Shown: positions 659 to 54,009 of the stretch, in pieces
Layout: every line of letters starts with the position of its first letter
How positions within the stretch are numbered: position 1 is the stretch's first letter
DNA from: Vulcanimicrobiota bacterium
Lineage (GTDB): Bacteria > Vulcanimicrobiota > Vulcanimicrobiia > Vulcanimicrobiales > Vulcanimicrobiaceae
Reading direction: 5' to 3'
Length of the DNA stretch: 59,067 bases
NCBI GenBank assembly: GCA_027307235.1
Contig: DAHUXH010000015.1
Coordinates: forward strand, 1 to 59,067
The notes under the pieces: model-generated
Database searches by the model: none
What the model saw: only the letters and a program-made list of their open reading frames with translations
Told to the model about the DNA's origin: nothing
Translations under genes and position numbers: made by a program

Positions 659-758
659 GGAAGCTCTGATTTTCGTCAGGCCGAGGCGCGGAGAGGCGAA
701 GTGTACTCTGGTACACGAGTCTCTCCGCAACGACGGCCTGGCGGAAATCAGAGTTTCC
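659..758 (+). repeat. Intergenic palindromic repeat, copy R1
   Basis: A ~100-bp imperfect palindrome fills the whole gap between two convergent stop codons (TAA ending at 658; TAA of the reverse gene at 760-762). From outside in: an outer stem (GGAAGCTCTGATTT with AAATCAGAGTTTCC, one G-T wobble), a second stem (CAGGCC with GGCCTG), an asymmetric internal loop (GAGGCG opposite CAACGA), a third stem (CGGAGAG with CTCTCCG), and a tip GTGTAC-TCTG-GTACAC. Three more copies occur in the window. Its position suits a bidirectional terminator. It is in the same orientation as R4. Confidence 0.9.
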
Positions 759-4247: not shown

Positions 4248-5285
4248 GTGGCAACCAAAAGCAGCGCCTCCGCCAAGCACGTCCCCGCCTTCGAGCGTCA
4301 CGGGCTTTCCGACGAACAACTCGTCTCGATGCTGCGTACGATGCTGATGCAGCGAACGCTCGAAAGCCGCGGCTTTCAGCTCAACCGGCAGGGCAAGATC
4401 CCGTTCGCGTCTGCAAGCGAAGGCCACGAGGCCGTCCAGGCCGGCGCGGCCATGGCGTTTCATCGCGGCAGCGACATCCTCGTTCCGTACTATCGCGACC
4501 TCGGACTGGATTTGGGCATCGGACTCTCCGCCGACGAGGTGCTGCTCTCGCTGTTTGCCCGCGCCGGCGACCTCTCCGGCGGGCGGCAGTTTCCGCACCA
4601 CTACGCGAGCAGGGAACTCGGACTGCACTCGATCTCGTCGGTCATCGCGGCCCAGCTTCCACATGCGGCCGGCGCGGCATACGCGATCAAACTGCGTAAG
4701 CAGACCGGCCGCGCCGTGCTCGTCACCTTCGGCGACGGCGCCACCAGCGAAGGCGAGTGGCACGAGTCGCTCAACTTCGCCGCCATTCATGCGCTCCCAA
4801 TCGTCTTTCTCTGCGAGAACAACGAGTGGGCAATCTCGACACCGCTCTCTAAGCAGATGGCACAGCCCGACGTTCACAAGCGCGCGGCCGGCTACGGTAT
4901 GCCGGGCGTCGCGGTGGACGGCATGAACCCGGTCGCGTGCTACAAAGCGGTGGCGGACGCCATGGAGCGCGCGCGCTCGGGCGGCGGACCGACGCTGGTC
5001 GAAGCCAAGTGTTATCGCTTTCTATCCCATACCACCGACGACGACGACCGGACCTATCGGTCCCGCGAAGAGGTCGACGAGCGCCGGAAGAACGACCCGG
5101 TACCGGCCTTCGAGCGTCTCCTGATCGAAAACGGCGTCCTGACCGCCGATGCAGTGGCGGAATTGAAGAGAGAAATCCTCACGGAAACGAATGAAGCGAC
5201 GGATCGGGCGGAAGCGATGCCGTACCCGCTGCCGCGCGACCTCTACAGCAAGGTATACGCCGACACGTACGAACCCTGGCGTTGA
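4248..5285 (+). CDS. 2-oxoacid dehydrogenase E1 component alpha subunit, copy 1
   Basis: A 345-residue thiamine-diphosphate-dependent E1-alpha subunit. The ThDP/Mg-binding motif starts GDGATSEGEWHE and ends about 30 residues later in ENNEWAISTP. The family's phosphorylation-loop region follows (SHTTDDDDRTYR). With E1-beta it decarboxylates a 2-oxoacid and passes the acyl group to the E2 lipoyl arm. The heterotetrameric E1 with strong similarity to 2-oxoisovalerate dehydrogenases points to branched-chain 2-oxoacids, though pyruvate or acetoin cannot be excluded. The start is GTG; no strong ribosome-binding site is visible. It heads a four-gene operon and is followed 20 bp later by a close paralogue. 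Confidence 0.88.
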   Translation: MATKSSASAKHVPAFERHGLSDEQLVSMLRTMLMQRTLESRGFQLNRQGKIPFASASEGHEAVQAGAAMAFHRGSDILVPYYRDLGLDLGIGLSADEVLLSLFARAGDLSGGRQFPHHYASRELGLHSISSVIAAQLPHAAGAAYAIKLRKQTGRAVLVTFGDGATSEGEWHESLNFAAIHALPIVFLCENNEWAISTPLSKQMAQPDVHKRAAGYGMPGVAVDGMNPVACYKAVADAMERARSGGGPTLVEAKCYRFLSHTTDDDDRTYRSREEVDERRKNDPVPAFERLLIENGVLTADAVAELKREILTETNEATDRAEAMPYPLPRDLYSKVYADTYEPWR

Positions 5286-5305: not shown

Positions 5306-6331
5306 ATGGCAAAAACGGACACCACGGTGAAAACCCTGGCACGCTACGGGCTGACCGACGAGCAGTTGCGAGAGATGTTCCGCAACATGCTCATGCAGCG
5401 GCAGCTCGACAATCGCGGCTTTCAGCTCAATCGCCAAGGGAAGGTTCCCTTCGCGCTCGGCAGTGAAGGACACGAGGCGCTGCAGGCCGGCGCCGCGATG
5501 GCGTTCACGCGCGGCAAGGACATCCTTGCGCCGTACTATCGCGATCTTGGTCTCGCGCTCGGGATCGGCTTGACCCCCTTCGAGATCATGCTCTCGATCT
5601 TCGCGCGCGCGCAGGACCACAACGGCGGCCGTCAATTTCCCAATCATTACTCCTCGAAGAAGGCCGGATTGATGTCGTTCTCGTCGATCCTCGCGGCGCA
5701 CATTCCGCACGCCGTCGGCGCCGCGTACGCGCTGAAACTGCGGCGGCAGGCCGACCGCGCGGTGCTCGTCACCTGCGGCGACGGCACGACGAGCGAAGGC
5801 GAGTGGCATGAAGCGATGAACTTCGCGGCGATCCACGGTTTGCCGCTGGTGATGCTCGTCGAGAACAACGAGTGGGCGATCTCGACGCCGCTTGATAAGC
5901 AGATGGGCCAACCGGAGATTTGGAAGCGCGCGGAGGGCTACGGCATGCCCGGCAAGCGTTTCAACGGATTCGATCCGATCGAGACCTACGGCGTCGTGAA
6001 GGAAGCGATGGACCGCGCCCGTGGCGGCGGCGGCCCGTCGATCATCGAGGGCATGTGCTACCGCTTCCTGGCGCACTCCACCGACGACAACGACATGACC
6101 TATCGCACCAAAGACGAGGTCGTCGAACATCGCAAGCACGACCCGGTGCCGCGCTTTGAAGCGCTCCTGCTCGAGCAAGGCGTCCTGACCGCCTCCGCCG
6201 TCGACGCGATGAAGAAAGACGTCCTGCGGGAGACCAACGAAGCGACCGACCAAGCCGAAGCGTTGCCGTATCCGCAAGCATCCGACCTGTATACCAACTT
6301 GTTTGAAGGAGCCTGGCAGCCGTGGCAGTGA
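5306..6331 (+). CDS. 2-oxoacid dehydrogenase E1 component alpha subunit, copy 2
   Basis: A 341-residue paralogue of the preceding gene, intact throughout, with its own ThDP motif (GDGTTSEGEWHE to ENNEWAISTP). Over the first ~70 aligned residues the two are about three-quarters identical by eye, and they stay alignable to the end (EATDQAEALPYP versus EATDRAEAMPYP). Differences cluster in a mid-protein stretch (PGKRFNGFDPIETYGVV versus PGVAVDGMNPVACYKAV) and at the extreme termini. Both may share the single E1-beta and E2 encoded downstream, giving E1 with alternative alpha chains and perhaps different substrate preference. An ATG start follows a purine-rich AGGAAACGAG. Confidence 0.88.
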   Translation: MAKTDTTVKTLARYGLTDEQLREMFRNMLMQRQLDNRGFQLNRQGKVPFALGSEGHEALQAGAAMAFTRGKDILAPYYRDLGLALGIGLTPFEIMLSIFARAQDHNGGRQFPNHYSSKKAGLMSFSSILAAHIPHAVGAAYALKLRRQADRAVLVTCGDGTTSEGEWHEAMNFAAIHGLPLVMLVENNEWAISTPLDKQMGQPEIWKRAEGYGMPGKRFNGFDPIETYGVVKEAMDRARGGGGPSIIEGMCYRFLAHSTDDNDMTYRTKDEVVEHRKHDPVPRFEALLLEQGVLTASAVDAMKKDVLRETNEATDQAEALPYPQASDLYTNLFEGAWQPWQ

Positions 6332-7308: not shown

Positions 7309-8643
7309 ATGGCAACCACAATTACGATGCCGCAGCTCGGCGAGACCGTGACCGAAGGCACGGTCGCGCAATGGCTGAAAAAAGTCGGCGATACCGTTGA
7401 AAAATACGAAGCGTTCGTCGAGGTCTCGACCGACAAAGTCAACGCCGAAGTTCCCTCTCCCGTGACGGGAACGATTCGCGAGATGCTCGTCAAGGAAGGC
7501 GAGACGGTCCCGACCGGTGCGCCGATCGCAATCATCGACGAAGTCGGCGCGCCGAGCGGCACCAAGGCCGGCGACGGACAGGCGCCCGCGGCGGCGACGC
7601 CGCCGGCTCCCGTCACCGCGCCGCCCGCGCCGAACGGTCATGCTCCAAGCTTCGTCGTGCACGACGGCGATCTCGAGATGGCACTGCGAAAGGCGTCACC
7701 CGCGGTTCGCAAACTCGCGCGCGAGCACCATATCGACATTCGCACGATCCGCGGCAGCGGCGCCAACGGCCGCGTGACCGCAAGCGACGTCTTGACCGCG
7801 TCGAGCATGGGTCCGGCCGCCGCCGTCGGTCAAGCCATCAGCGTCGGCACCAACTTCGCGGCGACCGGCGCTCCCGCCATGCCGGCGGCGACCGGCGGCG
7901 CCAAGACACCGCCGCCGAGCGGAACGTCGACATACGGAGAGCCGATTCCGGGCACGATCATCCCGCTCAATCAAGCGCGGCGCATCATCGCCGAACGGAT
8001 GGTCGAGTCCAAGCATACCGCGCCGCACGCGTGGTCGATGGTCGAAGTCGACGTCACCAACGTCTGGAAGTGGCGCTCGCGCGAGAAGGATCGTTTCGAG
8101 CGCGAGACCGGCTACAAGCTCACGCTGTTGCCGTTCTTCATGCGCGCGGTGATCGAATCGCTCGCGGCTTTCCCGCTGATGAACGCAAAATTCACGACCG
8201 ACGGCATCTACGTCAACAAGGATGTGAACATCGGCATCGCCATCGGCTTGCCGACCAACCTCGTCGTTCCGGTTGTGAAGAACGCAGATCAGAAGTCGAT
8301 CAAGGGACTTGCGATCGCGGCCGGCGAGTTGATCGACAAGGCTCGCAAGAACAAGCTCGGCGTCGACGATCTGGCGGGCGGCACGTTCACCGTCAACAAC
8401 AACGGCGCCAACGGCTCCTACGCATCGGCGCCGATCATCAACGGCGGACAAGCGGGCATCGTCACGATGGAGACGGTCGTCAAGAAGCCCGTCGTGCGCG
8501 ACGACGACTCGATCGCGATTCGCCAGATGATGAACTGCTGTCTCTCGCTCGACCACCGCGTCGTCGACGGCTACGTCGCCAGCGGCTTCCTCGCAGACCT
8601 CAAGCGCCGCCTCGAGAAAATGCCCGCCGACGGAAGTCTCTGA
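7309..8643 (+). CDS. 2-oxoacid dehydrogenase E2 (dihydrolipoamide acyltransferase)
   Basis: A 444-residue E2 subunit. Residues 1-77 form one lipoyl domain with the lipoylated Lys at position 43 (TDKVNAE). A Pro/Ala-rich linker follows, then the E1/E3-binding domain (SPAVRKLAREHHIDI ... GRVTASDV, about 128-160), a second Gly/Ala/Pro-rich linker, and the acyltransferase catalytic domain ending in DHRVVDG (residues 415-421, active-site His 416). It transfers the acyl group from lipoate to CoA and forms the core of the complex. It starts 3 bp after E1-beta. No dihydrolipoamide dehydrogenase (E3) is encoded nearby. Its last codons (GGA AGT CTC TGA) form part of the outer stem of repeat R2. Confidence 0.92.
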   Translation: MATTITMPQLGETVTEGTVAQWLKKVGDTVEKYEAFVEVSTDKVNAEVPSPVTGTIREMLVKEGETVPTGAPIAIIDEVGAPSGTKAGDGQAPAAATPPAPVTAPPAPNGHAPSFVVHDGDLEMALRKASPAVRKLAREHHIDIRTIRGSGANGRVTASDVLTASSMGPAAAVGQAISVGTNFAATGAPAMPAATGGAKTPPPSGTSTYGEPIPGTIIPLNQARRIIAERMVESKHTAPHAWSMVEVDVTNVWKWRSREKDRFERETGYKLTLLPFFMRAVIESLAAFPLMNAKFTTDGIYVNKDVNIGIAIGLPTNLVVPVVKNADQKSIKGLAIAAGELIDKARKNKLGVDDLAGGTFTVNNNGANGSYASAPIINGGQAGIVTMETVVKKPVVRDDDSIAIRQMMNCCLSLDHRVVDGYVASGFLADLKRRLEKMPADGSL

Positions 8644-8733
8644 TTTCCGCCATGCCTTCGTTGCGGAGAGGCTCGTGTACCAGAGTACACGTCGCCTCTC
8701 CGCGCCTCGGCCTGACGAAAATCAGAGACTTCC
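8632..8733 (-). repeat. Intergenic palindromic repeat, copy R2
   Basis: The second copy of the R1 family, in opposite orientation. The outer stem is perfect: GGAAGTCTCTGATTT pairs with AAATCAGAGACTTCC. The core carries GTGTAC-CAGA-GTACAC at the tip and the GAGGCG/CAACGA internal loop. One mismatch relative to the other copies (ATGCC in place of AGGCC) disturbs the second stem. The left arm overlaps the end and stop codon of the E2 gene. The element lies between the convergent E2 and lipoprotein genes. Confidence 0.9.
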
Positions 8734-40809: not shown

Positions 40810-40882
40810 GACCCCTGCCGGGACTCGAACCCGGACCACCGCCCTGCGAAAGACGGGCTCTATCCAGTTGAGCTACAGGGGC
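40810..40882 (-). tRNA. tRNA, probably Arg (UCG), with unusual anticodon arm
   Basis: Acceptor stem GCCCCTG/CAGGGGT (first pair G-U), TA at 8-9, D-stem GCTC/GAGC with D-loop AACTGGATA, and T-arm CCGGG-TTCGAGT-CCCGG are all clear. The anticodon arm is odd: the only good 5-bp stem is CCGTC/GGCGG with an 8-nt loop TTTCGCAG and no base 26. In that frame the anticodon is most simply UCG (Arg), supported by A20 in the D-loop; CGC (Ala) is the alternative. The 3' end continues CACCA, so the discriminator is C or A depending on how CCA is read. A terminator follows. Confidence 0.7.
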
Positions 40883-41014: not shown

Positions 41015-41098
41015 TGCGCAAGACTGGACTCGAACCAGCACGGGATTGCTCCCGCTAGCACCTCAAGCTAGTGCGTCTACCAATTCCGCCACTCGCGC
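41015..41098 (-). tRNA. tRNA-Leu (GAG)
   Basis: An 84-nt class II tRNA with a long variable arm. Acceptor stem GCGCGAG/CTTGCGC, D-arm with the Leu-type GGCGGAATTGGTAGACGC, a perfect anticodon stem CTAGC/GCTAG with loop TTGAGGT (anticodon GAG), a variable arm (GGGAGCAATCCC) and T-loop TTCGAGT. Discriminator A; the CCA end is not encoded. It reads CUC and CUU Leu codons. It lies 27 bp downstream of the oppC-like permease gene on the same strand. Confidence 0.95.
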
Positions 41099-51921: not shown

Positions 51922-52587
51922 GTGCTACACCGCATGTTTGCCGCCGTCGTCACGGCAGCGTTATGCGTAACGATCGGTTGCGCCGCAACCGTCACGCCGC
52001 CGCCGCAGCCGCAGGGCGCCGAAGTCCAGTTCGTCACTCAGATGCAACATGATCTGATGGCGCGCTTCCCGACCGCCGCCGATGCTGAAAAAGCCGGCTA
52101 CTTCCGCTACACGAACGAAGACAATACCGGCGCGATCAGTTACGCGAATTTGCAGTGGCAAAGTGCCGACCCGCAGCATCCGAGCCAGCTCTGGTATGAC
52201 GCGCACGGCAACTTGCTCGGCGCCGACTTCTCAGTGCTGCAGAGCAATTCACCCCAAGCGCCCTCATTGTGGGGTGTGAATCCCGCGCGCTGGACCAAAT
52301 TCACCGCGCATATGCACTACGTGATCACGTCCGCGGGCAAGATCTCGTATCGCGGCGGCAGTATCGCGAAGTACAAAGCCGCCGGCGGAGACCCGGATCA
52401 TCCGACCGCTGACGCAGTGGTGAAGCTCGGCATGGCGCATCAAGCCGCCGACGTGCAAAAGGTATTCGTCTTCCCCGCGATCTGGGATCTCATCGTCTGG
52501 GTGAAGACCAACCCCGACGGCGCCTTCGCCGAAAAGAACCCGCTAGTAAAACCCAGCAAGCCCTCCACCATGCCCGACGGCATGTAG
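51922..52587 (+). CDS. Lipoprotein of unknown function
   Basis: A 221-residue protein with a lipoprotein signal: hydrophobic residues 6-19 and lipobox TIGC (Cys20). The mature domain is globular (VQFVTQMQHDLMARFPTAADAEKAGYFRYTNEDN) with a HMHYVIT stretch. GTG start with AAGGAG 7 nt upstream, a strong ribosome-binding site. It follows the previous exported-protein gene by 11 bp, so they are likely one operon. The stop at 52585-52587 is 2 bp before repeat R3. No family assigned. Confidence 0.6.
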   Translation: MLHRMFAAVVTAALCVTIGCAATVTPPPQPQGAEVQFVTQMQHDLMARFPTAADAEKAGYFRYTNEDNTGAISYANLQWQSADPQHPSQLWYDAHGNLLGADFSVLQSNSPQAPSLWGVNPARWTKFTAHMHYVITSAGKISYRGGSIAKYKAAGGDPDHPTADAVVKLGMAHQAADVQKVFVFPAIWDLIVWVKTNPDGAFAEKNPLVKPSKPSTMPDGM

Positions 52588-52589
52588 GG

Positions 52590-52694
52590 ATTGGGGGGCG
52601 TGATTTACGCCGGGCCGTCGTTGCGGGGAGGCTCGTGTACCCGTAGTACACGTCGCCTCCCCGCGCCTCGGCCCGACGAAAATCACGCCCCCAA
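52590..52694 (-). repeat. Intergenic palindromic repeat, copy R3
   Basis: The third copy of the R1 family, in the same orientation as R2. The outer stem is locus-specific: ATTGGGGGGCGTGATTT with AAATCACGCCCCCAAT (one bulged G). The second stem reads CGGGCC/GGCCCG, where R1 and R4 have CAGGCC/GGCCTG: a compensating change. The third stem has GGGGAGG/CCTCCCC where R1 and R2 have GGAGAGG/CCTCTCC, again compensated. The tip is GTGTAC-CCGTA-GTACAC (5-nt loop). Confidence 0.92.
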
Positions 52695-52708: not shown

Positions 52709-52736
52709 TAAATAAAAAAGACCGTACACCAAACGG
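52709..52736 (-). terminator. Rho-independent terminator candidate after rpoD
   Basis: On the reverse strand, CCGT-TTGGTGT-ACGG is followed by TCTTTTTTATTTAT, a strong U-tract. The stem is short (4 bp) and shares its CCGT with the outer arm of R4, so R4 and this hairpin compete or act in tandem. It lies ~100 bp downstream of the rpoD stop codon. Confidence 0.5.
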
Positions 52737-52834
52737 AGCGCTCATTTTTGTCAGGCCGAGGCGCGGGGAGGCGACGTGTACTATGGTACACGAGCCTCCC
52801 CGCAACGAAGGCCTGGCGAAAATGAGCGCTCCGT
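52733..52834 (+). repeat. Intergenic palindromic repeat, copy R4
   Basis: The fourth copy, in the same orientation as R1 and head-to-head with R3 across 38 bp. The outer stem is ACGGAGCGCTCATTTT/AAAATGAGCGCTCCGT, perfect and unrelated in sequence to the outer stems of R1-R3. The core has GTGTAC-TATG-GTACAC, stem GGGGAGG/CCTCCCC and the GAGGCG/CAACGA internal loop. It abuts the rpoD stop codon (TAA at 52834-52836), overlapping it by one base. Confidence 0.92.
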
Positions 52835-54009
52835 TATTCGTTGGACCAGTAGTCTTTGAGAGCTTTACCCCTCGAAGGGTGGCGTAGTTTGCGGAGCGCT
52901 TTTGCTTCGATTTGGCGGATGCGTTCGCGCGTGACGCCGAACTCCTGACCGACCTCCTCGAGCGTGCGCTGCTGGCCGTCTTCGAGGCCGAAGCGCAGCA
53001 CGAGCACGCGCCGCTCGCGCTCGGTGAGATTTTGCAGCACGTCCTGCATCTTCTCTTTGAGCAGCATGACCGACGCGGCTTCCGCGGGCGCGATCGCTTC
53101 CTGATCCTCGATGAAGTCGCCCAAATGCGAATCTTCCTCTTCACCGATGGGGGTTTCGAGCGAGATCGGCTCTTGCGAGATCTTCATGACCTCGCGCACT
53201 TTTTCGGGGGTGAGTCCCATCGACTCGGCAATTTCGTCGACCGAGGGCTCTCTGCCGAGCTCTTGCAACAACTGGCGCGAAATTTTGATCAGACGATTGA
53301 TCGTCTCGACCATGTGCACGGGGATGCGGATCGTGCGTGCCTGATCGGCGAGCGCGCGTGTGATCGCTTGGCGAATCCACCAGGTCGCGTACGTGGAAAA
53401 CTTGTAGCCTTTGCGATAGTCGAACTTCTCGACGGCACGGATCAGTCCGAGGTTGCCTTCCTGGATCAAATCCAAGAACAGCATGCCGCGACCGACGTAT
53501 TTCTTCGCGATCGACACGACCAATCGAAGATTCGCCTCGGTCAACTGGCGTTTGGCCTCGTCTCCGATGAACACGATCGCCGGATCGGCTGCGCCGTTCT
53601 TGAGGTTCTCATTCTCCATCGCCTCGATCTTCATCGCGAGGTCTTTCTCTTGTTCCATGGACAAGAGCGGAACGCGACCGATCTCTTTGAGATACATGCG
53701 AACCGGATCGTCGAGCGACAGGCCGTCGCTGATCGCCTCGGCCGGATCGGGACGCTCCTCGTCTTCTTCGACCTTCTCGTCTTTTTGCTCGTAGACGATC
53801 TCCACGCCCATTGCGAGCAGTTCCTCGCAAAGCTCGTCGATGAACTCCGGACTGACGTCTTCGACGGCTTCGAATGCCGCCGCAATTTCTTCATAGGCCA
53901 GCGACCCGCGACTCTTGCCGCGCGCAATGACCTTCTTCTTCATCTCGTCGAGTGACGGCGCCGTAGCCGGCGCATCCATCACCGCAGCGTTCGTCTTCTT
54001 GCGTGCCAT
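52834..54009 (-). CDS. rpoD: RNA polymerase primary sigma factor RpoD
   Basis: A 391-residue sigma-70 primary factor. After a short N-terminal acidic region, region 1.2 ([17 protein letters not shown]) is followed by region 2 ([37 protein letters not shown]), region 3 and region 4.2 with a helix-turn-helix ([32 protein letters not shown]). The N-terminal part is shorter than E. coli RpoD. It is cotranscribed with dnaG (24-bp gap), a classic arrangement. It is followed by the R4 palindrome and a U-tract hairpin. Confidence 0.97.

Follow-up and report, generated by a model that had tools for sequence, protein, structure and literature searches.

A dispersed family of structured palindromes adjoining gene 3' ends in a Vulcanimicrobiota genome and in genomes of other phyla

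Introduction

Which kind of element is represented by four palindromes of about 100 bp that lie between genes of a Vulcanimicrobiota bacterium, and what accounts for their position and their self-complementary arms? The palindromes, R1 to R4, are located in a stretch of 59,067 nucleotides (GenBank assembly GCA_027307235.1, contig DAHUXH010000015.1, positions 1 to 59,067), hereafter referred to as the window, which is contig C15, one of the 20 contigs of a 2.41-Mb genome (G000). A first-pass annotation had described them as one family and read them as a conserved folded RNA or a protein-recognised hairpin, inserted into terminator stems between convergent genes. The elements and their conserved cores are listed below, with the strand given as the reading strand of CGTTGC...GCGCCT.

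659-758, minus strand: element R1; one edge adjoins the stop codon of the minus-strand gene 760-2001 (pyridine nucleotide-disulphide oxidoreductase), the other end the stop of a plus-strand gene ending at 658
685-731, minus strand: conserved core of R1 (GTTGC at 727-731, stem C and tip at 701-716, GCGCC at 685-689)
8632-8733, plus strand: element R2; the left arm contains TGA (8641-8643), the stop codon of the upstream 2-oxoacid dehydrogenase acyltransferase gene
8660-8706, plus strand: conserved core of R2 (GTTGC at 8660-8664, stem C and tip at 8675-8690, GCGCC at 8702-8706)
52590-52694, plus strand: element R3, behind the stop of the plus-strand gene 51934-52587
52620-52667, plus strand: conserved core of R3
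52733-52834, minus strand: element R4; adjoins the stop codon of the minus-strand rpoD-type sigma factor gene 52834-54009
52760-52806, minus strand: conserved core of R4

R3 and R4 share one intergenic region, in which each faces its own gene. The genes abutted in the window include rpoD and two genes of the pyruvate dehydrogenase type.

Results

The palindromes belong to a multicopy family

All four palindromes are present at the positions listed above and fold as long imperfect hairpins, with energies of -64 to -85 kcal/mol. A 19-nt core pattern occurs four times in the window, exactly at R1 to R4, compared to 0.27 occurrences on average and never more than 2 in shuffled sequences. Further copies had been expected elsewhere in the genome and were found in large number: nhmmer on fetched loci yielded about 75 distinct copies in G000, three to four of which are short remnants, and the covariance model labelled R2 gave 79 matches (E<=1e-4). 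The element has multiplied throughout this genome, in that many copies have identical or near-identical cores; one exact 47-nt core is found in seven to eight copies, the arms of which differ. No description of the family was found in the open-licence literature and, as far as this can be tested, R1 to R4 are members of an undescribed non-coding palindromic repeat family. Three-copy tandem arrays with a spacing of approximately 85-100 bp were seen at two loci, L040 (G000 C10:72584-72864) and L282 (C4:217738-218004 of genome G017).

Fixed loops, covarying stems and locus-specific feet

When the element is read in the same direction as the gene that it abuts, its first half consists of a left arm (~28 nt), CGTTGC, stem B (~8 nt), TC, stem C (5-6 nt) and a tip of 4-6 nt, and the second half of stem C', NTCG, stem B', GCGCCT and a right arm (~28 nt). 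The two arms form stem A of about 28 bp. Two asymmetric internal loops, the sequences of which are fixed, set the stems apart and flank a tip loop of variable length. We put the unit at about 103 bp because the information in the arms falls from about 2 bits to zero at about 28 nt from the core on both sides. Up to this distance the arms share a consensus, GGAAGCnCTGATTT.. and GGAAGC-n-CTGATTTTCG, so that the outer stems of different loci are related to one another, contrary to what had been thought from the four window copies; only the outermost bases are locus-specific, and these are nevertheless self-complementary. At one locus, L110, an identical 47-nt core is enclosed by arms which are unlike all others and still pair over about 20 bp. 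The bases of the stop codon are mirrored on the far side of the element, and about 93% of the outer arm pairs in G000 are of the Watson-Crick type.

The compensating base changes reported for the stems were confirmed far above both kinds of control. In an alignment of 43 copies, 21 of 41 pairs show double compensatory changes, and in 165 cells both partners have changed and pairing is retained, compared to 47.5 +/- 5.6 after shuffling and 22-49 with slid partners, while the unpaired loop bases are invariant, as the first-pass annotation had also noted. Its interpretation as a conserved folded RNA or protein-recognised hairpin stands insofar as the element is a conserved folded nucleic acid; a function as RNA does not follow from covariation alone, since template switching in DNA palindromes yields the same pattern.

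If the gene-sense RNA were under selection, G·U pairs should outnumber A·C pairs on the gene strand, and this was not seen. On this strand, the counts of A·C versus G·U, which are not phylogenetically independent, were 23 to 1 at the closing pair of stem C, 42 to 15 in stem B, and 26 to 15 (G000) and 45 to 21 (elsewhere) in the outer arms. Because A·C exceeds G·U on the gene strand, it is the antisense strand of the abutted gene that folds better. The bias in the outer arms comes from convergent contexts (30:7) and not from tandem ones (21:17; p=0.025), which may reflect an effect of the opposing transcript at the level of RNA, or selection at that level. Taken together, the strong arm covariation, the few G·U intermediates and the lack of a gene-sense excess show that covariation alone is not proof of a functional RNA.

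Several copies are rearranged. Three (L003, L012 and L023) are followed by a tandem duplication of the exact 3' half (G000 C11:51133-51182, C10:170159-170203 and C8:97433-97475), which runs from the tip (GTACAC...) to the foot specific to that locus; cleavage of the hairpin at its tip, or template switching there, would be expected to leave such a product. Two shortened hairpins (L220 1996-2038 and L214 2040-2076; G000 C18:73991-74059 and C9:81535-81605) carry internal palindrome deletions, in which the outer arms were kept and the tip and most of the core were lost.

The element abuts the end of one gene with fixed polarity

All copies had been proposed to sit between the ends of convergent genes. 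This is correct for the four copies of the window and does not extend to the genome, where the junctions of 75 copies are convergent in 41, tandem in 32 and divergent in two cases. With 10 convergent, 31 tandem and 9 divergent junctions in the window as a whole, the convergent excess of the element over the rest is nevertheless clear (p=2e-4). The constant feature is the polar abutment of the element to one gene's end, for which the term 'convergent junctions' is too narrow. Using gene calls from a simple codon-usage caller rather than an annotation, and counting as abutment a distance of -2 to +5 nt from the stop codon or a TGA 11 nt inside the arm, a defined end of the element lies at the stop codon in 46 unambiguous cases, in 43 of them in one orientation and in three in the other (p=5e-10); the preference for gene 3' ends and the non-random position are thereby upheld. 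Where two elements share a convergent gap, each faces its own gene. The stop codons at the element edge are TAG in 29, TAA in 10 and TGA in two cases, compared to 49, 63 and 87 elsewhere (p<1e-6). Genes abutted elsewhere in G000 include rpsJ, rpsO, rplA, nusG, rho and metK. Direct repeats at the element boundaries did not exceed those in swapped-flank controls, i.e. no target-site duplication was found.

Some copies adjoin tRNA genes (tRNA-Pro, -Val, -Ser, -Ala and one antisense tRNA; loci L312 1519-1682, L304, L120, L156 and L145). Either tRNA end, 3' or 5', may be abutted, always by the same edge of the element.

The element occurs in several phyla

Copies in related genomes, which had also been anticipated, are common: in 55 of the 81 genomes of the order, the model labelled R1 found between 1 and 46 copies, and in the order-wide sample it matches 24 of the 34 genera sampled from the family of the window organism. 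A strict core-loop pattern retrieved at least 80 stretches in GTDB contigs. Among the matches listed are Eremiobacterota, alphaproteobacterial MAGs (including Paracaedibacteraceae), Burkholderiales, Cupriavidus, Methylotenera, Chromobacterium amazonense, Rheinheimera, a Spirochaetaceae MAG and a MAG labelled archaeon, and the copy numbers of the carriers range from 1 to 40. The proteobacterial carriers are scattered over the alpha, beta and gamma classes. Since this pattern fixes GTTGC, RYGTAC/GTACRY and TCG, the conservation of these bases across the carriers is no evidence; GCGCCT, the covarying stems and the position behind stops are outside the pattern. In the cross-phylum alignment, 157 double changes were counted versus 50.6 +/- 5.4 in controls. 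From the stop of a long ORF to GTTGC, 37 of 48 gaps in other genomes measure 24-31 nt (mode 26), and the distribution on the mirror side is flat; the element thus has the orientation there that it has in G000. The upstream genes in these carriers include groES, groEL, rplL and clpX. The core shape is common across phyla while the stem sequences differ. The families are genome-specific.

The occurrence is patchy. In the phylum of Chromobacterium, the strict pattern is missing from 397 of 398 sampled genomes, the seed genome being the sole match, and many Chromobacteriaceae matches with E above ~1e-9 look like ordinary hairpins and were left uncounted; the strong matches of this family are located in rRNA operon spacers. 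The Chromobacterium and Rheinheimera copies lie in rRNA operon spacers beside tRNA genes. In the Chromobacteriaceae rRNA operons (L221-L223 and L226), each spacer holds two opposite elements about 190 bp apart, and in C. amazonense the pair brackets tRNA-Ile. An origin from phages or plasmids was considered and dismissed, as no viral contig contained the core pattern and a blastn search of phage and plasmid records, with one Cupriavidus copy as the query, gave no match. A genome of 0.8 Mb with 16 copies (G118, SI039_bin30, in a record labelled archaeon) offers a useful small gene set in the search for a partner protein.

Retention of copies at the same gene was observed in some lineages. In Cupriavidus, a copy is kept behind a gene ending in RKKEGYF, with compensatory changes between species (L142 versus L152), and in one genus of the Eremiobacterota a copy is kept behind one gene. 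Between genera, orthologous retention was seen at nusG (three genera), clpX (two) and rpoD (two); such orthologous abutted genes are few, and the whole set is little above chance. Related genomes were examined at rpoD for a clean empty site, and none was obtained: one species (G017) has an intact element there, and in the other genus nothing was alignable. Behind rpoD in genome G053 (L325), a third species with a decayed copy, a remnant of the 3' half of the element lies at the stop, and the 5' half is replaced by another short repeat (GTCATCCTGAGCGAAGCGAGTG...), which may represent a separate repeat family.

Comparison with known palindromic repeats

REP palindromes are found between convergent and same-direction gene pairs, mostly less than 20 bp from ORF 3' ends, and GTAG REPs often provide the TAG stop codon (PMC3733652). 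The present family resembles REPs and BIMEs in being a many-copy intergenic palindrome with a 3'-end bias and few divergent junctions, and GTAG REPs in that TAG is the edge stop in 29 of 41 cases. It differs from them in its length (~103 bp versus 20-40 bp in REPs), in a build of three stems stacked on one another with two internal loops of invariant sequence, in its almost fixed orientation to the abutted gene, and in the lack of a conserved GTAG tag, although TAG is common at the foot; neither a GTAG nor a CGTC family fits, the structure of CGTC-tagged REPs (PMC3733652) being incompatible with that of the element. The Y1_Tnp domain of RAYTs (PF01797) was not found in G000, which is 96.6% complete, nor in 8 of 14 other element-bearing genomes searched. 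A reverse transcriptase was not detected in G000 and is missing from most element-rich genomes tested, and the integron integrase (TIGR02249) was not found in G000 and exceeded the cut-off in one of 15 genomes. We thus discarded RAYTs, integron integrases and reverse transcriptases as the common partner.

MITEs and longer palindromic repeats of bacteria include Correia/NEMIS, ERIC and RUP elements. Like these, the present family consists of non-coding, dispersed, intergenic, imperfect palindromes of ~100 bp. MITEs have conserved terminal inverted repeats, whereas the information in the present element peaks in the core and has its minimum at the ends, and it lacks a target duplication above control. 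With structured RNAs of Rfam it has in common covarying stems and invariant loops; no Rfam family reached its gathering threshold, whether in the window or over the elements of ten further loci, and a permissive search gave chance-level matches only. The family is like REPs and MITEs in its distribution, fails their defining tests and follows an unexplained placement rule. That it constitutes a distinct class is conceivable, albeit rather doubtful.

Discussion

The explanation which we tentatively prefer, and which falls somewhat short of being probable, is a mobile palindrome similar to REPs or MITEs, the loops of which are recognised by a putative factor and the arms of which are kept complementary by template switching. 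The mobile part of this reading is based on the multiplication in the genome, the genome-specific families, the patchy cross-phylum occurrence and the polar placement. The fixed loops, together with conserved C·A and G·U irregularities, would form the recognition site of a putative protein or nuclease by which the hairpin is moved or maintained; its substrate would probably be the antisense strand of the abutted gene in a folded, single-stranded form. The element would be mobile now or have been so until recently. The outer arms might be kept complementary mainly by template switching, i.e. quasipalindrome correction, with the gene-side arm as the template: polymerases stalled in the palindrome would copy from the opposite arm, and those conserved mismatches that resist such correction would mark the functional part. 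Template switching at quasipalindromes is documented in E. coli (PMC7202029). It would account for the mirrored stop-codon bases on the far side as well as for arms that differ blockwise and yet are perfect, with scarce wobble intermediates. Several results speak against mobility: no transposase was found in the searches for Y1_Tnp, integron integrase and reverse transcriptase, no target-site duplication was seen, and no clean insertion site relative to an otherwise alignable relative was obtained. The tight spacing to the stop codon, which is matched by no known insertion rule, also counts against it, and the restriction of the outer-arm strand bias to convergent contexts could instead mean selection on RNA; retention at the same gene in several species likewise speaks against pure selfishness and points to a function.

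The main rival is a function in the 3'-UTR, in which the hairpin behind the stop acts in cis on the mRNA by blocking 3' exonucleases, or by being processed or bound by a protein, and so protects the reading frame and stop of important genes. The position directly behind stops with fixed spacing in several phyla, the retention with compensatory change in Cupriavidus and the nature of the abutted genes (rpsJ, rpsO, rplA, nusG, rho, metK and rpoD, and elsewhere groES, groEL, rplL and clpX) agree with this, and for copies within conserved operons a role in stability or processing is plausible. However, G·U does not exceed A·C on the gene-sense strand, where the bias is in fact reversed, some copies adjoin tRNA genes at either end and have no stop codon, and a regulatory site that stays in place is harder to reconcile with families specific to one genome and recently multiplied, which suggest copying. 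We consider this explanation unlikely, though deserving serious attention. The lack of an RNA-strand signal on the gene strand in spite of structural conservation would be compatible with a DNA site for a host protein at the ends of active genes, comparable to BIMEs and bound by gyrase, a nucleoid protein or a factor acting in replication-transcription conflicts, as would the 3'-end location, the near absence of divergent junctions and the many housekeeping genes. Since the tip varies between 4 and 6 nt while the flanking loops are fixed, which favours a folded hairpin over a duplex, and since the scatter among Pseudomonadota argues against a general host factor, we regard such a site as distinctly improbable.

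It is very unlikely that the elements are bidirectional intrinsic terminators of convergent genes. Strong hairpins between convergent genes, present at 41 of the 75 junctions, are what such terminators would provide, but there is no U-tract in either direction (TTTT within 12 nt in 2 of 69 and 4 of 69 flanks), 32 of the 75 junctions are tandem, including those behind rpsJ and nusG (and groES in other genomes), copies stand beside genes of conserved operons, the ordinary terminators of G000 look different, and simple terminators would need no invariant internal loops. The first-pass proposal that the core had been placed in the loop of existing terminator stems had to be given up as well: the arms share ancestry to 28 nt and have no U-tract, and pre-existing stems are wanting as hosts, in that element-free genes rarely have a hairpin directly at the stop and the few ordinary terminators there begin ~30 nt downstream with other sequences. 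Integron attC sites, finally, form a hairpin behind a stop codon, in which the antisense strand is the better folder and conserved irregularities are combined with variable stems. The element shares this general layout, and could on this ground be taken for an attC-like recombination site active as a bottom-strand hairpin. It lacks the integrase boxes, however, as no RYYYAAC or GTTRRRY is present at the foot, which is its least conserved part and almost without sequence information, and there are no cassette arrays, the abutted genes being chromosomal housekeeping genes; given also the results for the integron integrase described above, an attC-like nature is extremely improbable.

A wider form of the mobile reading, which we put forward with considerable reserve, is a class of structured mobile elements that crosses phyla and keeps a fixed polarity at gene boundaries, namely ORF 3' ends and tRNA edges. 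The folded single strand would be recognised by a putative enzyme unrelated to RAYTs, integron integrases and reverse transcriptases, and the arms would be rewritten from the end of the host gene, giving locus-specific palindromes. If the element is mobile, it represents a palindromic repeat family with an internal structure common to several phyla, a strict rule of position and orientation and no known transposase, and the search for its enzyme is a defined task. If it is functional, ribosomal, chaperone and transcription genes carry a 3'-end element that has gone unrecognised. In addition, the family lends itself, as a natural example, to telling apart the maintenance of DNA palindromes by template switching and selection acting on RNA structure.

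Further features of the window

Apart from the palindromes, the window contains a 300-nt direct repeat (4328-4627 and 5374-5673, 70% identical) within two neighbouring plus-strand genes, which probably reflects paralogous domains. Two tRNA genes are located on the minus strand at 40810-40882 and 41015-41098.
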